From Candidatus Peregrinibacteria bacterium (GTDB lineage: Bacteria; Patescibacteriota; Gracilibacteria; UBA1369; LOWO2-01-FULL-3): 64,000 nt of DNA. How positions within the stretch are numbered: position 1 is the stretch's first letter; each line of letters starts with the position of its first letter. The translations under genes and the position numbers were made by a program. Below the pieces are notes generated by a model, which saw nothing but the letters and a program-made list of their open reading frames with translations, did no database searches and was not told the DNA's origin. Location of the stretch: contig JABILX010000004.1 of the NCBI GenBank assembly GCA_018654255.1, forward strand, positions 124,001 to 188,000, in the 5' to 3' direction. Shown here piece by piece: positions 54,360 to 62,974 of this stretch.

Positions 54360-54387
54360 TTGACTTAAGTCTGAAAAGTGGTAGTAT
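54360..54387 (+). promoter_or_regulatory. Promoter of the 54.4-kb gene pair
   Basis: TTGACT, 16 bases, TAGTAT. It covers an upstream GTG of the reading frame, so ATG 54420 (leader about 26 bases) is the likely start. Confidence 0.45.
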
Positions 54388-54419
54388 GCAGTACTCTAAA
54401 TATTTACCAATTATTTGAG

Positions 54420-54773
54420 ATGCCAGAATTTGAAACAAACATCTTTGGGCAACGAGCTACGATAGAGTACGAAATCCGTGATAGTGCAAAAGTGCGCGCA
54501 AACGCATCTAGAACACCTAGGATGGATGTTCGTGTATCAAGGGTAGATGGAATCAACCCAGAAAGTATAAACAAGAGAACAAAAGCTCGCATACAAGCCG
54601 CAATAAGGAAAGACATGGGATTTGATGGCCAGTTGATTGCATCATGGGAGAGAGATATCCAGGGAAGCAGAATTCATTCATATCATGTAGTTGACAATGA
54701 TGGTGATACAGAAACAACGATAGGAGAAATAAGAAGTCTATTTGGAACTCAACCTATACAATCAACAGAATAA
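54420..54773 (+). CDS. Hypothetical protein, first of a pair
   Basis: A protein of 117 residues from ATG 54420 (MPEFETNIFGQ). It seems soluble, with mixed charge and beta-alpha character (RATIEYEIRDSAKVRAN; INKRTKARIQAAIRKDMGFDG). I do not recognise the family. A GTG at 54378 would extend it, but the promoter overlaps there. The next gene begins two bases after its stop, so the pair is probably cotranslated and functionally linked. Confidence 0.62.
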   Translation: MPEFETNIFGQRATIEYEIRDSAKVRANASRTPRMDVRVSRVDGINPESINKRTKARIQAAIRKDMGFDGQLIASWERDIQGSRIHSYHVVDNDGDTETTIGEIRSLFGTQPIQSTE

Positions 54774-54775
54774 TA

Positions 54776-55165
54776 ATGACTATGGAAAGAATGATAGACA
54801 TAGACGTTGATATAGAAGGACCACTAAACAAGTGTCTATTCAGGCAACCTGGTGAAGATGAAGATCACCTAGAAAGACATATTGTAATCGGGCCAAAAGA
54901 TGCTCCAGGATTGGTTTCAGCAAACATAAGATCAGGTACAATATATGTATTAATAGGTCCGACTAGAAAAGATGGTGTATGCGAAATACACGGAATAAAA
55001 GTTCTGCAAGAACGCACGAGAGGAGAAACAGAACTATGTGCTGAAACAGATATAGACATGGACAAAAAAAACGATCTCGTACTTAGGGAAGTAGGAAAGA
55101 AAGTCATTAAAACCCTTCACTGTCTTTGGGCCGGCACAAGACAATCTAAAGCCTCTTCCAAATAG
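54776..55165 (+). CDS. Hypothetical protein, second of a pair
   Basis: A 129-residue soluble protein with alternating acidic beta strands (MIDIDVDIEGPL, IYVLIGPTRKDGVCEIHGIKV, CAETDIDMD) and a C-terminal helix. No motif is recognised. The start may be ATG 54776 or the ATG two codons later. The 3' end overlaps cysS by 20 bases on the opposite strand. Its pairing with the preceding small gene is the only functional clue. Confidence 0.6.
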   Translation: MTMERMIDIDVDIEGPLNKCLFRQPGEDEDHLERHIVIGPKDAPGLVSANIRSGTIYVLIGPTRKDGVCEIHGIKVLQERTRGETELCAETDIDMDKKNDLVLREVGKKVIKTLHCLWAGTRQSKASSK

Positions 55166-56504: not shown

Positions 56505-56806
56505 ATTCCTGCAATTAATTGAACTAAAAAAGAAGTAAGTAAACTAATTCCCACCAATGCAATCAATGGAGAGAGGTCTATCATTCCAATTTTATGAGGC
56601 AATTTCTTGATGAGATTCATGATAGGGTCAGTTGCGCTGTTTATAATCTGTGTAAGTTTGCCAGGAGGACCTCCACCAGCAACCACAAACCAAGATAAGA
56701 TTACTCGAATAAAAATCGCATAAGTCAGCAAATTCCCCAAGACATTTACAAAATTAGCCAAAAATATTTTCAATTGAATGATATTCATCGAAAAAGATAT
56801 TACCAC
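56501..56806 (-). CDS. YggT-family membrane protein
   Basis: A 101-residue protein with two hydrophobic regions (LLTYAIFIRVILSWFVV; LSPLIALVGISLLTSFLVQLI) around the conserved GGGPPGKLTQIINSATDPIMNLIKK, the YggT hallmark. Family members (also called CcmB-like or YlmG) relate to cell division or chloroplast nucleoid partition. The frame starts at GTG 56806, overlapping the preceding gene; ATG 56788 is an alternative. Its TGA stop overlaps the cysS start, one of only two TGA stops in the window. Confidence 0.85.
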   Translation of the reverse strand: MVISFSMNIIQLKIFLANFVNVLGNLLTYAIFIRVILSWFVVAGGGPPGKLTQIINSATDPIMNLIKKLPHKIGMIDLSPLIALVGISLLTSFLVQLIAGI

Positions 56807-58914
56807 ATCTCCTTTCTTCTAGTCGAGAAATATGTATAGAAAAGCCCGCCAAAGATTGCAGACAAAAACAACCAGACCACTTCAGGACCACTGTCACTAA
56901 CATCCTCACCCATATCATCGAAGTTTTCCCCACCGGCCGTACCTTGCCAAACATCAGTAGTAGATCCTTGCCCAACACCATCAGGATAAGATGAGTTTGG
57001 CGTAGCAGAAACAATATTGCTCAGGTGAGCACTTATATTGCCCTGATTATCAACAGCAGCAACGGCAAAGAAATATTCGGTATCGTTATGTAGATCAGGA
57101 ATAAACCAAGTTGTAGTTGCATCCCAAGTATCAATAACATACATCAGTTGATTCGGAGACAATCCATAAGAAATCCTATAAAACTGAACCGGAGACCCGC
57201 TTGATGGAGGAGTCCAACTAAGAGTGAGTTTGTGATTCCCAGGAATAGCAACCAAGCCAGTAACGTCACCAACAGTAGTTCCACTAAGCAAAGAACTGTT
57301 AGATACGTTCAAGAGATGACTAGCCTCTTCTATATTAGATTCATTTCCCAAAGCATCGACCAATGTAAATTTCAAAGGATAAGTCCCTCCCAGGATTGGA
57401 GCACTAAAAGAAGCAGAATAATATCCATCCTCAGACTCTTCCATTTCAAAAATCGCATTATTTAAATCCAAAAGAACTTGAGTCAAACCAGGCTCAGCGT
57501 ACAAACGAACCTCAGTAGTGCCACCGGAAGAAACTGTATCGGAAGGCAGAATTTCAAGAGATTGTAGGTCTGGAGCAGTCGTATCTACAGTTATTTTAAC
57601 TTTAGGAGATGAAGCGAGTATCGTTCCACTTTGATTAATTATTGCCACATAAAACTCATGACTTCCGTCGGTCATCAAACCAGTTGTATAAGAAAACGTA
57701 CCGGTAGGTGATGCAGAAGCATCCCCGACCTTTATATTATTGTCGTAAATAACTAGGCTGGCACCTGCCGTAGCTGTTCCGGAAATTACTTGCACATTAT
57801 TGCTATAGGTTCCAGGGGTCGGATTTGTAATACTTGCAGCATTGCTTATTCCTGCTTGAGCAGAATTAACGGTAATAGAAGCAGTCCCAAACAGAGTTGG
57901 GTCAGAAACATCTCTAGCTTCTACAACATAAGTTCCGGCGGTAGCAAAAGAAAGAGCCAAAGCAAAAGGATGAGAACCCAGGTTCTCAGATTGATAAGTG
58001 TAATTGTTAGGTAAAGTAACTCCAGTCTGTGACCCTGAAGCTATAGAGAATTGCACAGTACCTGCATAGTCCGTCACAACTTGGTCTGATTCGTCTCTAG
58101 CAGACAAAGTGAAAGATAAAGCCTGTCCAGTATTTACAGATGTAGGGGCATCTTCAAATTTCAAATAAGCAACAGGGCCAGAAGCGGCTCCGACTGCATT
58201 ACCTATAAAAGCCTGCGTATTAGAGAACAACTGCTCATTTGAGTCGAAATAAACCACTTTTGCCCTCTGAGTTAATATCTTATTTGCAGTCAAGTCGTAC
58301 ACAGAATAAGAAGAAACACCACTCTCATCAGAATTCACTGTAAACAAAGACATCCCATTCTGATCGGTGAGATTATTGTCTACAGAGGTTACGTCAGAAC
58401 TTCTGCTAGATATTAATTCGACGACATGCCCAGGAATTGAATTTCCATACATATCCTGTAATCGAACTTCTATTTCTCCATACTCATTGCCGATACGAAC
58501 CACTTGCTCAGAAGGTGTTACCGCAGAATAGACTTCAGACATATCACCAGGAATAACCTGGAAAACATTAGAAGCGCCATACTGAGAAGATCCTTGGTAT
58601 TTTGCAGAAACCTGGTAATCACCAGCTATCCTAGTATGAAAATCATTCAATTCAATCCTCGCAACCCCGTCCAAGCCAGCAGTTGCAGGAAGTTCTACGT
58701 ACAAACCATCAGGTTTGACCACCTTGAATACCAAAGAGGAAGACGCGGAAACCACAGATGATTCCAACGTAGTGGGGAAGCCAGAGACAGTATCTGAACC
58801 AGAAACAGCCAGTTGATCCCCATAAGATTCAAAATCATAAGCAAAAGCTGTTGAAGCCAAAGAGGCACCAATAGCCACACCAATCAATAATTTTTTAAAT
58901 ATAGTATCTATCAT
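56800..58914 (-). CDS. Large secreted Ig-like/FN3 surface protein with C-terminal membrane anchor
   Basis: A 704-residue protein: signal peptide (about 1-25), several Ig-like or invasin-type beta domains (about 35-420, with VVRIGNEYGEIEVRLQDMYGN and VSYSVYD-type patterns), a cadherin-like segment (APDLQSLEILPSD), an FN3 domain (about 560-650, GNHKLTLSWTPPSSG, TEYFFAVAAVDNQGN) and a C-terminal membrane helix followed by RRKEMW. The ending (acidic patch, GPEVVW, helix, basic tail) resembles a sorting or anchor signal, though no LPxTG is seen. Role: adhesion or contact. It has a leaderless promoter divergent from the PKD-7TM operon. Confidence 0.78.
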   Translation of the reverse strand: MIDTIFKKLLIGVAIGASLASTAFAYDFESYGDQLAVSGSDTVSGFPTTLESSVVSASSSLVFKVVKPDGLYVELPATAGLDGVARIELNDFHTRIAGDYQVSAKYQGSSQYGASNVFQVIPGDMSEVYSAVTPSEQVVRIGNEYGEIEVRLQDMYGNSIPGHVVELISSRSSDVTSVDNNLTDQNGMSLFTVNSDESGVSSYSVYDLTANKILTQRAKVVYFDSNEQLFSNTQAFIGNAVGAASGPVAYLKFEDAPTSVNTGQALSFTLSARDESDQVVTDYAGTVQFSIASGSQTGVTLPNNYTYQSENLGSHPFALALSFATAGTYVVEARDVSDPTLFGTASITVNSAQAGISNAASITNPTPGTYSNNVQVISGTATAGASLVIYDNNIKVGDASASPTGTFSYTTGLMTDGSHEFYVAIINQSGTILASSPKVKITVDTTAPDLQSLEILPSDTVSSGGTTEVRLYAEPGLTQVLLDLNNAIFEMEESEDGYYSASFSAPILGGTYPLKFTLVDALGNESNIEEASHLLNVSNSSLLSGTTVGDVTGLVAIPGNHKLTLSWTPPSSGSPVQFYRISYGLSPNQLMYVIDTWDATTTWFIPDLHNDTEYFFAVAAVDNQGNISAHLSNIVSATPNSSYPDGVGQGSTTDVWQGTAGGENFDDMGEDVSDSGPEVVWLFLSAIFGGLFYTYFSTRRKEMW

Positions 58915-59031: not shown

Positions 59032-60573
59032 ATGATTAAATCAAAGCTCATAGTTGGATTATTATCCATCGGACTGTTATTTTCAATGAATATTGCTTTT
59101 GCAGTAGAGGACAACAGCCCAACGTTGTTGGAGGGGATTATAACTGCAGAAGACACGGTTGCAGTTAAAAGGAGTACTATATTGGATGCCTCTCAAAGCT
59201 TCCTCTCAGATCCTGGCTCAAATTACAGTTACGAGTGGGATTTTGGCGACGGCAATAAAAACGAGGGAGTCGAGGTCTTACATGCATACAAAGATCCGGG
59301 GAGATACACGGTTACTCTAGATATACATAATGAAAACGAAAGTACGACAGTCCAAAAAGAAGTGTTTGTATTCAAGAAGTTAATACTTCTTCTAACAGAT
59401 TCAGACGAAGACAAGGCTCAAATAGAAGCAATAAGAAGTTATGCGGAAAAACAGGGAGTTTTTGTGAAGATAATAGAAAGTTTCGGAAGCGCATCAGAAT
59501 TCATATCAGAAGAAGTCCTGACTAAAACACTTATAGAATCGACTTCATATATTCAAAAGTCGTTACAGATAGTTATATGGACAAAAGAAAACGCAGGCAT
59601 GAACGCTTTTTCTAGGTATATCCAAGAAATAAAAGAAACTAATCCCGTTAATTTCTCTCAAAAATCAGTTGTAGTCATAACAGATGATCCATCTGATTAT
59701 ACAAACAGAGTAAAAAGGCAGTACGAGATAGTGTCTCCAAAAAACATAATCTTAGTTCAAGAAGCAGGAATATATCAACTTATAGATAATTTTACTTCAA
59801 GCGATTTTACGGAGAGTTTGGATACGAAGGGTTATGACTACGAAGTGATAACGGAAGGTAGCTTCAAGCTAAGACCATGGAATTTCATGTCGTATTCTGT
59901 AGCACAATTAGTAGAGAAAGGGATCCCAGACAATACAATAGCTCTTTTACTTCTGCTCCCGATAATAGCGACCGTAGTAGCCTTGATGAAACAAGTTGTG
60001 GGACTAACAACCATGGGAATATATACGCCTACCATTATAACTTTATCGTTCCTGATTATAGGTCCCTATTTCGGACTGTTGACACTCTTGATGGTGCTAG
60101 TCGTGGGAGCCTTAGCAAGACGCTTGCTGAAAAAAGTCCGACTACTTTTTATTCCAAAAATGGCGATAGTATTAACAGTAGTAGCGATAACCCTATTCTT
60201 GGTTTTAATAATAAGTATGTCTCTCGGGATATTCAATGCAACATTCTTCTCATTAGCAATATTCCCAATGGTGATATTGAGTACCTTGGTAGAGAAATTT
60301 GTAAGTATCAAAACAGAGAAAGGATTGATATCAGCAACCGTATTGATGTCCGAGACAATAGTAGTTTCATTAATTGCATTTATTGTTGCTGGCGGAGAAA
60401 TGGACTTAGGATTTGTGACAATTCAATGGGGCTTCTTTAGGGCATTAATGCTTAATTACCCAGAATTAATATTTGCCTTACTTGTTGTAAATATATTACT
60501 CGGTAGATGGAGCGGCTTAAGGGTTCTAGAATTTATCAGATTTAGAGAAATTCTAAGACACATAGAAGAATAA
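59032..60573 (+). CDS. PKD domain plus 7TM_transglut-family membrane protein
   Basis: A 513-residue protein with a signal peptide (1-24), a PKD domain (about 35-112; YEWDFGDGN at 67-75, HAYKDPGRYTVTL), an alpha/beta domain (about 115-270; LILLLTDSDEDKAQ, SVVVITDDPSDY) and a seven-helix membrane domain (about 300-495). The membrane part carries the signature VGLTTMGIYTPTIITLSF and the following PKMAIVLTVV of the family named 7TM-transglut (PF14402). In known members a dead transglutaminase precedes the helices. Here PKD and an alpha/beta domain replace it. The family is usually encoded next to an ATP-grasp ligase, as is true here: the next gene starts 10 bases later. Confidence 0.82.
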   Translation: MIKSKLIVGLLSIGLLFSMNIAFAVEDNSPTLLEGIITAEDTVAVKRSTILDASQSFLSDPGSNYSYEWDFGDGNKNEGVEVLHAYKDPGRYTVTLDIHNENESTTVQKEVFVFKKLILLLTDSDEDKAQIEAIRSYAEKQGVFVKIIESFGSASEFISEEVLTKTLIESTSYIQKSLQIVIWTKENAGMNAFSRYIQEIKETNPVNFSQKSVVVITDDPSDYTNRVKRQYEIVSPKNIILVQEAGIYQLIDNFTSSDFTESLDTKGYDYEVITEGSFKLRPWNFMSYSVAQLVEKGIPDNTIALLLLLPIIATVVALMKQVVGLTTMGIYTPTIITLSFLIIGPYFGLLTLLMVLVVGALARRLLKKVRLLFIPKMAIVLTVVAITLFLVLIISMSLGIFNATFFSLAIFPMVILSTLVEKFVSIKTEKGLISATVLMSETIVVSLIAFIVAGGEMDLGFVTIQWGFFRALMLNYPELIFALLVVNILLGRWSGLRVLEFIRFREILRHIEE

Positions 60574-60583
60574 TTTTTACCTT

Positions 60584-62974
60584 ATGGAGTTATTTAAATC
60601 AAAGGGGATACTAGGAATAAACGCCAGAAACCTTTTATACATCAAGCCTTATAACGAAAAGAAGGCTATTAAACTTGCTGACAACAAGATAAAAACAAAA
60701 AGATTCTTGGAAGCAAGGGGCGTGCCAGTCCCAAAGCTGATCGCTGCAATCCATACAAGAGAAGAAGCAGAGAAATTTAACTTCGACATACTTCCAAACG
60801 CATATGTGTTGAAACCAAATTTTGGATTTGGTGGAGAGGGAATAATACCAATAGCAAACAAACGAGAAAAATACTGGATAACTTCAAGCGGCAAAAAAGT
60901 CGACAAAGAATTCTTATTTGATCACATAATCGACATCCTTGATGGTAGATTTTCTATATCAAACATTTCGGATTCAGCCTTTTTCGAGCAACTGATAATT
61001 CCTGACGATGTCCTGAGTGCTTACACATACGAAGGACTTCCAGACATCAGAGTAATAGTCTACAACCTGGTTCCAGTTATGGCCATGCTGAGGCTTCCAA
61101 CAAAAGAATCGGGTGGTAAAGGAAATTTGCATCAAGGCGCAGTCGGGGTAGGAATAGACATTGCAACAGGTAAAACAACTTATATTGCAAGAGGCGACAA
61201 GGTGGTAGACGAGATCCCAGACGTAGGGCCAATAGAAGGATTGAAGATACCATTTTGGGATGAAATACTTCACATAGCGTCCAACGTTCAGATAGTTACA
61301 AATCTGGGTTATTTAGCCGTAGACATAGCGATAGATAAAAGTACGGGCCCAGTTCTACTCGAAATAAACGCAAGAGCAGGACTAGGGGTACAAATCGCAA
61401 ATCTAGCCCCGTTAAAAAAAAGACTCGAACGTATTCAGGGAATAAAAGTAACGTCACCAGAAAAAGGAGTCCGAATAGCAAAAGACATGTTCGGAAAGGT
61501 GTTAGAAAAAGAAATAAAACAGATATCGGGCAAACAAGTGATAGGAAAGGTGGAAGAAGTCGAAATGATTCTGAAGAAAGGTACTCAAAAAGTAAAAACA
61601 CTCATAAGTCCATCACAGGAAAGAAGTGTGTTAGACCAGGCTCTCGCTGAAGAATTAGGATTGCTAGATAGTCAAAAATACAATGACGAACAATCGACGT
61701 TAAAAATCAAATTCAACCTAAAGGACAAGAGAATACAGACAGTAGCAGACATAGAAAAATTCCCAGAAGAAAACCAATTGAAATTCATGGTAGGGTCTAG
61801 GGATCTTCAAGATTTCTTGATAGACCCATCTTACAAAGAGGAAGCATCGGACAAAAGACAGATCATGTCAGAAAAGAATATACAGAAACCAATTGTAAAA
61901 AAATCGATTACCAACAATTTCAATATTGACCAGGAGTTAGTAAACGTAGACAACAAATTAAAGCTACTTTTCCATCTTCGCCCAACGAACCTAGAAACAG
62001 AAAAAGGGAAGTTTTTAGAAAACTTTTCTTACAATCCTCAGTTTACATACCCAGAAATAAAATTCGACCCAATCGACTTAAAACAAAGACTGTCCAATAT
62101 AGAAACAGATGAGTCACCGTTGGGTACGATCTTTAAAGAAAAAAAAGAAGAGCTAGTTAAAAAAATAGAGTTGATAGAGCGTGTTGACCACGAAGAATTT
62201 ACAGAGAAGTCAGTGGCTCTATTTGGAAGACCAGACGACAAAACGATACAAGAAGCGGAGAATTTACTTCTAGAAGCTGGAAAATTCGACTCCAAAGACA
62301 AGGAAGATGTTAGTTGTGAAGAAGCAAAAAATGAATTCGAAAAAGTATTCAAAAAATACAGACTCAACAACTGGAAGGTAAAGATAAAGGACGAAATGGT
62401 TACAAACTGTATAGCTGGAAAAAACAACAGATTGTTTGTCCGAAGAGGGTCCACTTTCTCAGAAAAAAGTATAAAAGATCTTATTGTCCATGAGATTGAA
62501 ACTCACATATTGACCGCAGAAAACGGCAAGAACCAACCCTACGAGATATTCAACAGGGGCCTCGCAAATTATCTAATAACACAAGAAGGATTGGCTACTT
62601 ACAACGTAACGACTCAGAACAAAGAAGGCATAAAAAACAGATACAAATCCTTAGCATTAATACTGGCCACAGATGTTGCAATGAATGCCTCTTTCGTAGA
62701 AACATTCGAAAAAATACTATCTCTAGGAATTCCTATTGATCAAGCCTTGAGAATATCATTAAAAGTAAAAAGAGGACTTTCTGATACAAGTAAAAAAGGT
62801 GCTTTTACAAAAGATATTATTTATTACAAAGGATACAGGGAAGTTCAAAATTTCGTAGAAAATGGAGGAAAGATAAAAGACCTATACGTCGGAAAACTAA
62901 ATCTAAACGACATAGAAGAAATAAATAAGATAGAAGGTCTAACCTCTCCTAAACACCTTCCACACTGGCTTTAA
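60584..62974 (+). CDS. ATP-grasp ligase / degenerate retropepsin-like / DUF1704 metallopeptidase fusion
   Basis: A 796-residue three-part protein. Residues 1-300: RimK-related ATP-grasp ligase (ATPgrasp_ST type) with YVLKPNFGFGGEGI (74-87) and the metal/ATP motif LEINARAGLGVQIAN (259-273), apparently active. Residues 316-418: RimB/retropepsin-like fold (VIGKVEEVEM; KFMVGSRDLQDFLIDPS), but the catalytic DTGA is replaced by SPSQ at 342-345, so it is likely inactive. Residues about 440-796: DUF1704/QEGLA family, with HEIETH (636-641) and TQEGLATYN (666-674), a zinc carboxypeptidase-like site of the HExxxH type. Separate genes elsewhere carry these functions. It probably ligates amino acids to, and trims them from, a peptide or protein at the membrane. 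Confidence 0.82.
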   Translation: MELFKSKGILGINARNLLYIKPYNEKKAIKLADNKIKTKRFLEARGVPVPKLIAAIHTREEAEKFNFDILPNAYVLKPNFGFGGEGIIPIANKREKYWITSSGKKVDKEFLFDHIIDILDGRFSISNISDSAFFEQLIIPDDVLSAYTYEGLPDIRVIVYNLVPVMAMLRLPTKESGGKGNLHQGAVGVGIDIATGKTTYIARGDKVVDEIPDVGPIEGLKIPFWDEILHIASNVQIVTNLGYLAVDIAIDKSTGPVLLEINARAGLGVQIANLAPLKKRLERIQGIKVTSPEKGVRIAKDMFGKVLEKEIKQISGKQVIGKVEEVEMILKKGTQKVKTLISPSQERSVLDQALAEELGLLDSQKYNDEQSTLKIKFNLKDKRIQTVADIEKFPEENQLKFMVGSRDLQDFLIDPSYKEEASDKRQIMSEKNIQKPIVKKSITNNFNIDQELVNVDNKLKLLFHLRPTNLETEKGKFLENFSYNPQFTYPEIKFDPIDLKQRLSNIETDESPLGTIFKEKKEELVKKIELIERVDHEEFTEKSVALFGRPDDKTIQEAENLLLEAGKFDSKDKEDVSCEEAKNEFEKVFKKYRLNNWKVKIKDEMVTNCIAGKNNRLFVRRGSTFSEKSIKDLIVHEIETHILTAENGKNQPYEIFNRGLANYLITQEGLATYNVTTQNKEGIKNRYKSLALILATDVAMNASFVETFEKILSLGIPIDQALRISLKVKRGLSDTSKKGAFTKDIIYYKGYREVQNFVENGGKIKDLYVGKLNLNDIEEINKIEGLTSPKHLPHWL

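Follow-up and report, generated by a model that had tools for sequence, protein, structure and literature searches.

A MATCAP-type eraser appears to have replaced the retropepsin in a class-wide Rlo-like ligase module

Two adjoining genes in a 64,000-nucleotide stretch of the 1.24 Mb genome of a Candidatus Peregrinibacteria bacterium (Gracilibacteria; contig JABILX010000004.1, positions 124,001 to 188,000; we call this whole stretch the window) encode a Rlo-like ligase module that is found across the class and in which the retropepsin appears to have given way to a MATCAP eraser. Gene A (59032..60573) specifies an RloB-like membrane protein of 513 residues with a secreted N-terminus, a PKD domain, an alpha/beta domain and a 7TM domain. 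Gene B (60584..62974) specifies a 796-residue fusion of ATP-grasp, retropepsin-like and MATCAP domains. Both genes, with all of their features given below, are on the + strand, and their open reading frames (ORFs) are 10 bases apart. An original prediction, made from the letters of the DNA, had proposed a two-gene operon encoding PKD, 7TM, ATP-grasp, retropepsin-like and DUF1704 domains, DUF1704 being the former name of the Pfam MATCAP family (PF08014). The ORF calls bear out the operon, and Pfam, NCBIfam, profile comparison and AlphaFold bear out the domains. All our searches covered the genome collections sampled and the open literature.

The domains, the catalytic residues, their conservation, the coupling of the genes and a conserved Glu-Glu end of the membrane protein are observed here. 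The best model that we can offer, with about an even chance of being right, is a membrane-tethered cycle of C-terminal glutamylation. The ATP-grasp domain (the writer) would work on the inner side of the membrane, where it extends a free carboxyl end stepwise with glutamate or similar amino acids, and the MATCAP domain (the eraser) of the same chain would trim the added residues from that C-terminus. The 7TM protein would anchor the enzyme via its conserved cytoplasmic tail, and its own C-terminal Glu-Glu would be the most likely acceptor. Writer and eraser might then set the length of the acidic tail, perhaps as directed by the PKD and alpha/beta domains outside. The chemistry suggested originally, in which the ligase adds and the DUF1704 part removes, is thus retained as the most likely one.

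The MATCAP domain occupies residues 449-796 of gene B (61928..62971). It matches PF08014 with E 8.3e-61 and 206 bits (cut-off 27) and the QEGLA family TIGR02421 with E 1.5e-61. Its metal-binding motif, HEIETH (residues 636-641, 62489..62506), is of the HExxxH type, with His and Glu positions conserved in 38/38, and the QEGLA motif (62582..62596) supplies Glu668, also conserved in 38/38, as the likely third metal ligand. The profile match, the HExxxH motif and the third Glu ligand together place the domain in the MATCAP/DUF1704 family. In the predicted structure it superposes on human MATCAP with a Z score of 27.6 (279 residues, 2.3 Å). Human MATCAP/TMCP enzymes take off C-terminal residues of tubulin and shorten polyglutamate chains (PMC10499314), and we regard the bacterial domain as a putative carboxypeptidase or deglutamylase.

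The middle third of the protein, a RimB/RloA-related, retropepsin-like domain (residues 313-418, 61520..61837), is followed by a flexible linker (residues 421-440, 61844..61903) with a predicted local distance difference test score (pLDDT) under 50. Alone, the middle third has no Pfam match. It aligns with unfused relatives, some of which match PF05618 (Zn_protease) or RloA3, and its homology to retropepsins is seen in a profile-profile comparison of fused with unfused middle domains (99.7% probability, E 4e-27). The unfused relatives read KAKIDTGA at the catalytic motif; in the window protein the alignment puts Ser342-Pro343-Ser344 (61607..61615) in place of DTG. A working retropepsin in the window protein is rejected on this motif, whose loss the original prediction had missed. 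Only 4/45 fused proteins keep D[TS]G, compared with 32/34 unfused ones, and the Asp of the motif alone is found in 22/45 and 32/34, respectively. In the two unfused exceptions (L064 and L065, both NTG) a MATCAP gene directly adjoins the ligase gene. Since D[TS]G is mostly lost in fused proteins and mostly retained in unfused ones, MATCAP is probably the working eraser. The idea that three functions are combined in one chain holds for the three domains, but not for three working activities, the retropepsin being degenerate.

The retropepsin would have been the original eraser of the family, with its catalytic motif lost in most fused members. It is probably retained as a scaffold or activator, with a part in dimerisation, substrate binding or activation of the ligase. 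RimB stimulates RimK besides cleaving polyglutamate (PMC11957791), and the keeping of an inactive retropepsin fits this stimulation, which might be the reason for its retention. Two other loci encode proteins of 854-921 residues that combine ATP-grasp with an intact retropepsin (L070:7408-10173 and L071:3218-5782); Pfam matches a second ATP-grasp domain in L070, and L071 gives only a weak match of the biotin-carboxylase type.

The ligase domain (residues 4-287, 60593..61444) is an ATP-grasp of the TIGR02291/RloC type. It matches ATPgrasp_ST (PF14397) with E 2.2e-65 and 221 bits (cut-off 31.4) and TIGR02291 with E 5e-84 and 282 bits, the latter under the strict cut-off of 314.2, and it is 42% identical to the RloC-type protein of the Legionella RloABC locus. 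The ATP-grasp residues, including K77, D154, R156, R170, D247, E260 and N262, are invariant in 40-41/41. The AlphaFold model of gene B has a mean pLDDT of 91.7, with the mutual placement of its domains unsure (predicted template modelling score 0.54). For the ATP-grasp part of this model, the top matches in Foldseek and VIA-align are RimK, a poly-alpha-L-glutamate synthetase (Z 17.9), and ArgX, which adds Glu to LysW (Z 18.5). The RimK_N plus RimK architecture is not found: RimK_N is absent, the alignment begins at RimK residue 98, and PF08443 is weakly matched. Legionella and Aeromonas have RloC-type proteins that likewise lack RimK_N. This N-terminal RimK domain holds most of the polyglutamate contacts (residues from PMC10092738).

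With these contacts missing, the ligase might add a different amino acid, in a tubulin-tyrosine-ligase-like or peptide-ligase reaction, which MATCAP would then remove, and glutamate would not be involved. The ATP-grasp superfamily is broad, and MATCAP also removes tyrosine from tubulin. We nevertheless give this suggestion very little credence, as the solved structures closest to the ligase part are those of glutamate ligases, and polyglutamate is a substrate common to MATCAP and the protease family that it displaced. RimK extends ribosomal protein S6 with glutamates that RimB trims (PMC7343187), and RloA cleaves polyglutamate (PMC12239564). That the RimB/RloA family and MATCAP are unrelated proteases with one characterised activity in common suggests the same kind of substrate, and glutamate would then be the added residue.

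Gene A would provide the membrane partner. Its 7TM_transglut domain (residues 283-507, 59878..60552) matches PF14402 with E 1.7e-28 and 100 bits (cut-off 25) and is of the RloB type; Legionella RloB is 30% identical to gene A over the 7TM part. The PKD domain (residues 31-115, 59122..59376) matches PF18911 with E 1.1e-15 and resembles the PKD domain of ColG (2y72) with Z 14.7. Between the two, an extracytoplasmic alpha/beta domain (residues 116-279, 59377..59868), recognised from its secondary structure, occupies the place of the inactive transglutaminase domain of RloB. No Pfam or NCBIfam profile matches a transglutaminase in gene A, which sets it apart from RloB in this respect. In the AlphaFold model (pLDDT 90.3) the alpha/beta domain bears a weak likeness (Z about 10) to one lobe of the amino-terminal domain of GluA2/3; searches with the whole model are dominated by PKD and give no firm fold match for the 7TM part and the alpha/beta domain. 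The outer part of these 7TM proteins varies, with PKD and alpha/beta domains here, an inactive transglutaminase in RloB and no outer domain in several other members of the phylum.

The coupling of membrane protein and ligase is found well beyond the window. In nearly all linked loci the 7TM gene is directly upstream of the ligase gene, and 37/45 fused loci, like 33/34 unfused ones, have the two side by side (same strand, less than 200 bases apart). Halobacterium sp. DL1 has the 7TM and ATP-grasp parts joined in a single polypeptide, so the C-terminus of the 7TM part and the ligase share one compartment; this is direct evidence that the two cooperate on the same side of the membrane. The gene for that 584-residue fusion of a 7TM_transglut-like and an RloC-type ATP-grasp part (L218:3164-4918, on a plasmid) is not in the plasmid gene table, and annotated transposase genes lie nearby. 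Where TGA-recoded genomes carry the 7TM gene at another site, the place directly upstream of the fusion gene is taken by a different ORF, one with about five predicted transmembrane helices (L117:9254-10288 and L118:9112-10011). The cytoplasmic C-terminal tail of gene A, GRWSGLRVLEFIRFREILRHIEE (60502..60570), carries a G.R..E..RF motif that the alignment shows to be common to fused and unfused relatives, and it is the proposed dock for the ligase.

The last two residues of this tail, Glu512-Glu513 (60565..60570), are a proposed acceptor or docking site. This feature, too, was missed in the original prediction. All told, the 7TM protein ends in Glu-Glu in 75/78 fused genomes (window included) versus 3/52 unfused loci, counts that depend on the ORF calls and on one hidden Markov model for the 7TM protein. 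In the first set of fused genomes the final residue is Glu in 41/41 and the last two are Glu-Glu in 39/41; the corresponding figure for unfused genomes without MATCAP in the locus is 0/21, and for other long ORFs of the same fused loci 2/411. Further genomes were gathered after the Glu-Glu prediction had been set down. Among these held-out genomes, 35/36 fused ones have the Glu-Glu end (11/12 linked, 14/14 with the 7TM gene located elsewhere, mostly in TGA-recoded lineages, and 10/10 further genomes), versus 0/18 unfused ones, where a single Glu is found in 3/18. Two of the three unfused Glu-Glu loci are L064 and L065, with MATCAP next door and a dead retropepsin. Entropy at the 7TM end is 0.17 bits at position -1 and 0.37 bits at -2, versus 2.7-3.7 bits at -3 to -8. 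That the protein almost always ends in two glutamates makes its tail the likely target.

Could the Glu-Glu codons be a Shine-Dalgarno sequence for the ligase gene? This origin is ruled out. Of 77 Glu-Glu 7TM entries, fused and unfused together, 36 lack a ligase start in the 40 bases that follow. Genomes with an unlinked 7TM gene keep Glu-Glu as well, so the codons do not serve as a ribosome-binding site. Some of the 7TM genes with no ligase start nearby are followed by terminator-like hairpins, and where unfused loci have their two genes equally close, only 2 of 26 end in Glu-Glu.

A conserved tail is by itself no proof of modification, however. Glu-Glu might instead be a docking or anti-degradation tail, while the fused enzyme acts on another protein, such as S6 or the divergent Ig/FN3 surface protein encoded at 56800-58914 on the - strand, which has a C-terminal membrane anchor and was the substrate first suggested. 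An Ig/FN3 gene is indeed a neighbour in 15/45 fused loci, but it is absent as a neighbour from the rest, and the C-termini of these proteins vary (...KEMW in the window), where the Glu-Glu of the 7TM protein is nearly invariant; the Ig/FN3 protein is unsupported as a substrate. As for S6, the genome has a separate canonical RimK (G000:C6:181972-182529; L124:5670-6587), the usual S6 enzyme, which has no RimB-like neighbour. We consider action on another protein unlikely.

The main rival to the glutamylation cycle is export of a polymer. The ligase would make free oligoglutamate (or another peptide), or a form of it linked to lipid or cell wall, the 7TM protein would move or hand this product across the membrane, and MATCAP would edit its length or recycle it; Glu-Glu would do no more than imitate the product or give MATCAP a place to dock. 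In Pseudomonas, loss of rloB or rloC rescues the loss of the secreted RloA proteases, from which it follows that whatever RloB and RloC make has its effect outside the cytoplasm (PMC12239564). A peptide product would also suit the extra ATP-grasp ligases, some of them cyanophycin-synthetase-like, in other patescibacterial loci. Yet here MATCAP is located on a cytoplasmic enzyme, a separate peptidase of the Zn_protease family (PF05618) was not found in the genome, and unless something reads the carboxyl end, there is no easy explanation for the near invariance of the last residues. We regard export as a rather unlikely explanation.

The fusion itself is not an artefact of assembly. Across the phylum 94/287 genomes have a match to the fusion protein, with the top 24 or so being fusions of full or nearly full length, and within the class 148/192 sampled genomes have one, most of them full-length; among near-complete genomes the figure is 126/162. 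This recurrence removes the concern, raised with the original prediction, that a single genome might be responsible. In TGA-recoded lineages the frame of the fusion is open once TGA is read through. The nearest named relative is a Candidatus Peregrinibacteria bin, whose fusion is 69% identical. In genomes of other classes, ligase and middle domain are united in one protein some 430-510 residues long. MATCAP, if present there, usually has a gene of its own, which in some loci is directly downstream.

Several points weigh against the glutamylation cycle. On the ligase-domain tree there are two changes between fused and unfused states, one being the main fusion and the other a further fusion in L053 and L055, with 8 changes for motif loss and 6 for Glu-Glu. 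An independent-pairs test of fusion, motif loss and Glu-Glu is not significant, and with so few changes the association rests largely on one clade; it cannot be called statistically independent. One genome (G432), the sole held-out exception, has the fusion together with a 7TM protein ending in Lys-Lys. The absence of RimK_N means that the glutamate specificity of the ligase is something we infer. Lastly, the RloA protease of Pseudomonas is secreted (PMC12239564), so that the product there is thought to reach the periplasm and not a cytoplasmic tail.

Although the system was first put forward as a candidate undescribed one, it has relatives in the RloABC system of Pseudomonas (PMC12239564) and in published RimB-RimK hybrid proteins (PMC11957791). 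Our search of the open literature, with subscription papers outside its scope, found no paper on an ATP-grasp/retropepsin/MATCAP fusion. From sequence comparison, the locus may best be described as a Rlo-like module with its protease replaced, with RloABC and RimK/RimB as the nearest known systems. Like RloABC of Pseudomonas aeruginosa (PMC12239564; also Legionella adelaidensis, L216), it co-encodes a RloB-type 7TM protein and a RloC-type ligase and includes a member of the retropepsin family. RloA, however, is separate and secreted, whereas here the retropepsin lies within the ligase protein and reads SPS; RloB has its inactive transglutaminase in place of PKD and alpha/beta domains, and there is no MATCAP in RloABC. 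The C-termini of RloB-like proteins of Legionella and Aeromonas are not Glu-Glu. In RimK/RimB and the RimBK hybrid (PMC7343187, PMC11957791) a glutamate ligase is paired or fused with a polyglutamate-cleaving retropepsin, and the target is a protein C-terminus; our module is alike in joining a probable glutamate ligase to a retropepsin-like domain, with a protein C-terminus as its proposed target. It differs from them in lacking the RimK N-terminal domain, and RimBK has an active, N-terminal protease and neither a membrane partner nor MATCAP.

Other resemblances are to parts of the module. The MATCAP/TMCP tubulin carboxypeptidases (PDB 7z5g; PMC10499314) have the same fold and the HExxxH and Glu motifs, but they are stand-alone eukaryotic enzymes acting on tubulin, not bacterial domains fused to a ligase. 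The free C-terminus of Dishevelled receives glutamates from TTLL11, a ligase of the TTLL family, and loses them again to the carboxypeptidase CCP6 (PMC11574253); these are separate eukaryotic proteins with an eraser of another family, and the likeness is one of analogy only. In a rhizobial cluster (L144), genes for an N-formylglutamate amidohydrolase, a QEGLA protein and a glutathione-synthetase-like protein stand together, so that DUF1704/MATCAP is again beside an ATP-grasp gene, albeit of another ATP-grasp family and with no 7TM protein or retropepsin annotated there.

In bacteria, C-terminal extension with poly-alpha-glutamate has so far been described only for S6 (PMC11957791), and for Rlo a substrate is still to be named (PMC12239564). 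The Glu-Glu end of the 7TM protein is a concrete candidate acceptor. Bacterial DUF1704/QEGLA proteins, too, gain a suggested role from the locus. It further points to a natural swap of glutamate erasers, from aspartic protease to metallocarboxypeptidase, on the same ligase, which mirrors the tubulin code. It is possible, though we hold it somewhat doubtful, that a bacterial membrane protein bears a reversible C-terminal glutamate tail, written and erased by a single polypeptide with a MATCAP-type eraser outside tubulin, and that such a glutamylation code belongs to the core equipment of an entire class of ultra-small bacteria.

Among the unfused patescibacterial loci, L057, L058, L060, L061, L066, L067, L068 and L071 encode 1-3 further ATP-grasp ligases, which are cyanophycin-synthetase-, RimK- or glutathione-synthetase-like, and L057 also encodes an N-formylglutamate-amidohydrolase-like protein; by their gene content these may be larger peptide-ligase operons. 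In the window, two small adjoining ORFs of 131 and 129 residues, with no function assigned, lie at 54378-55165 (+) between the MurC and CysS genes.

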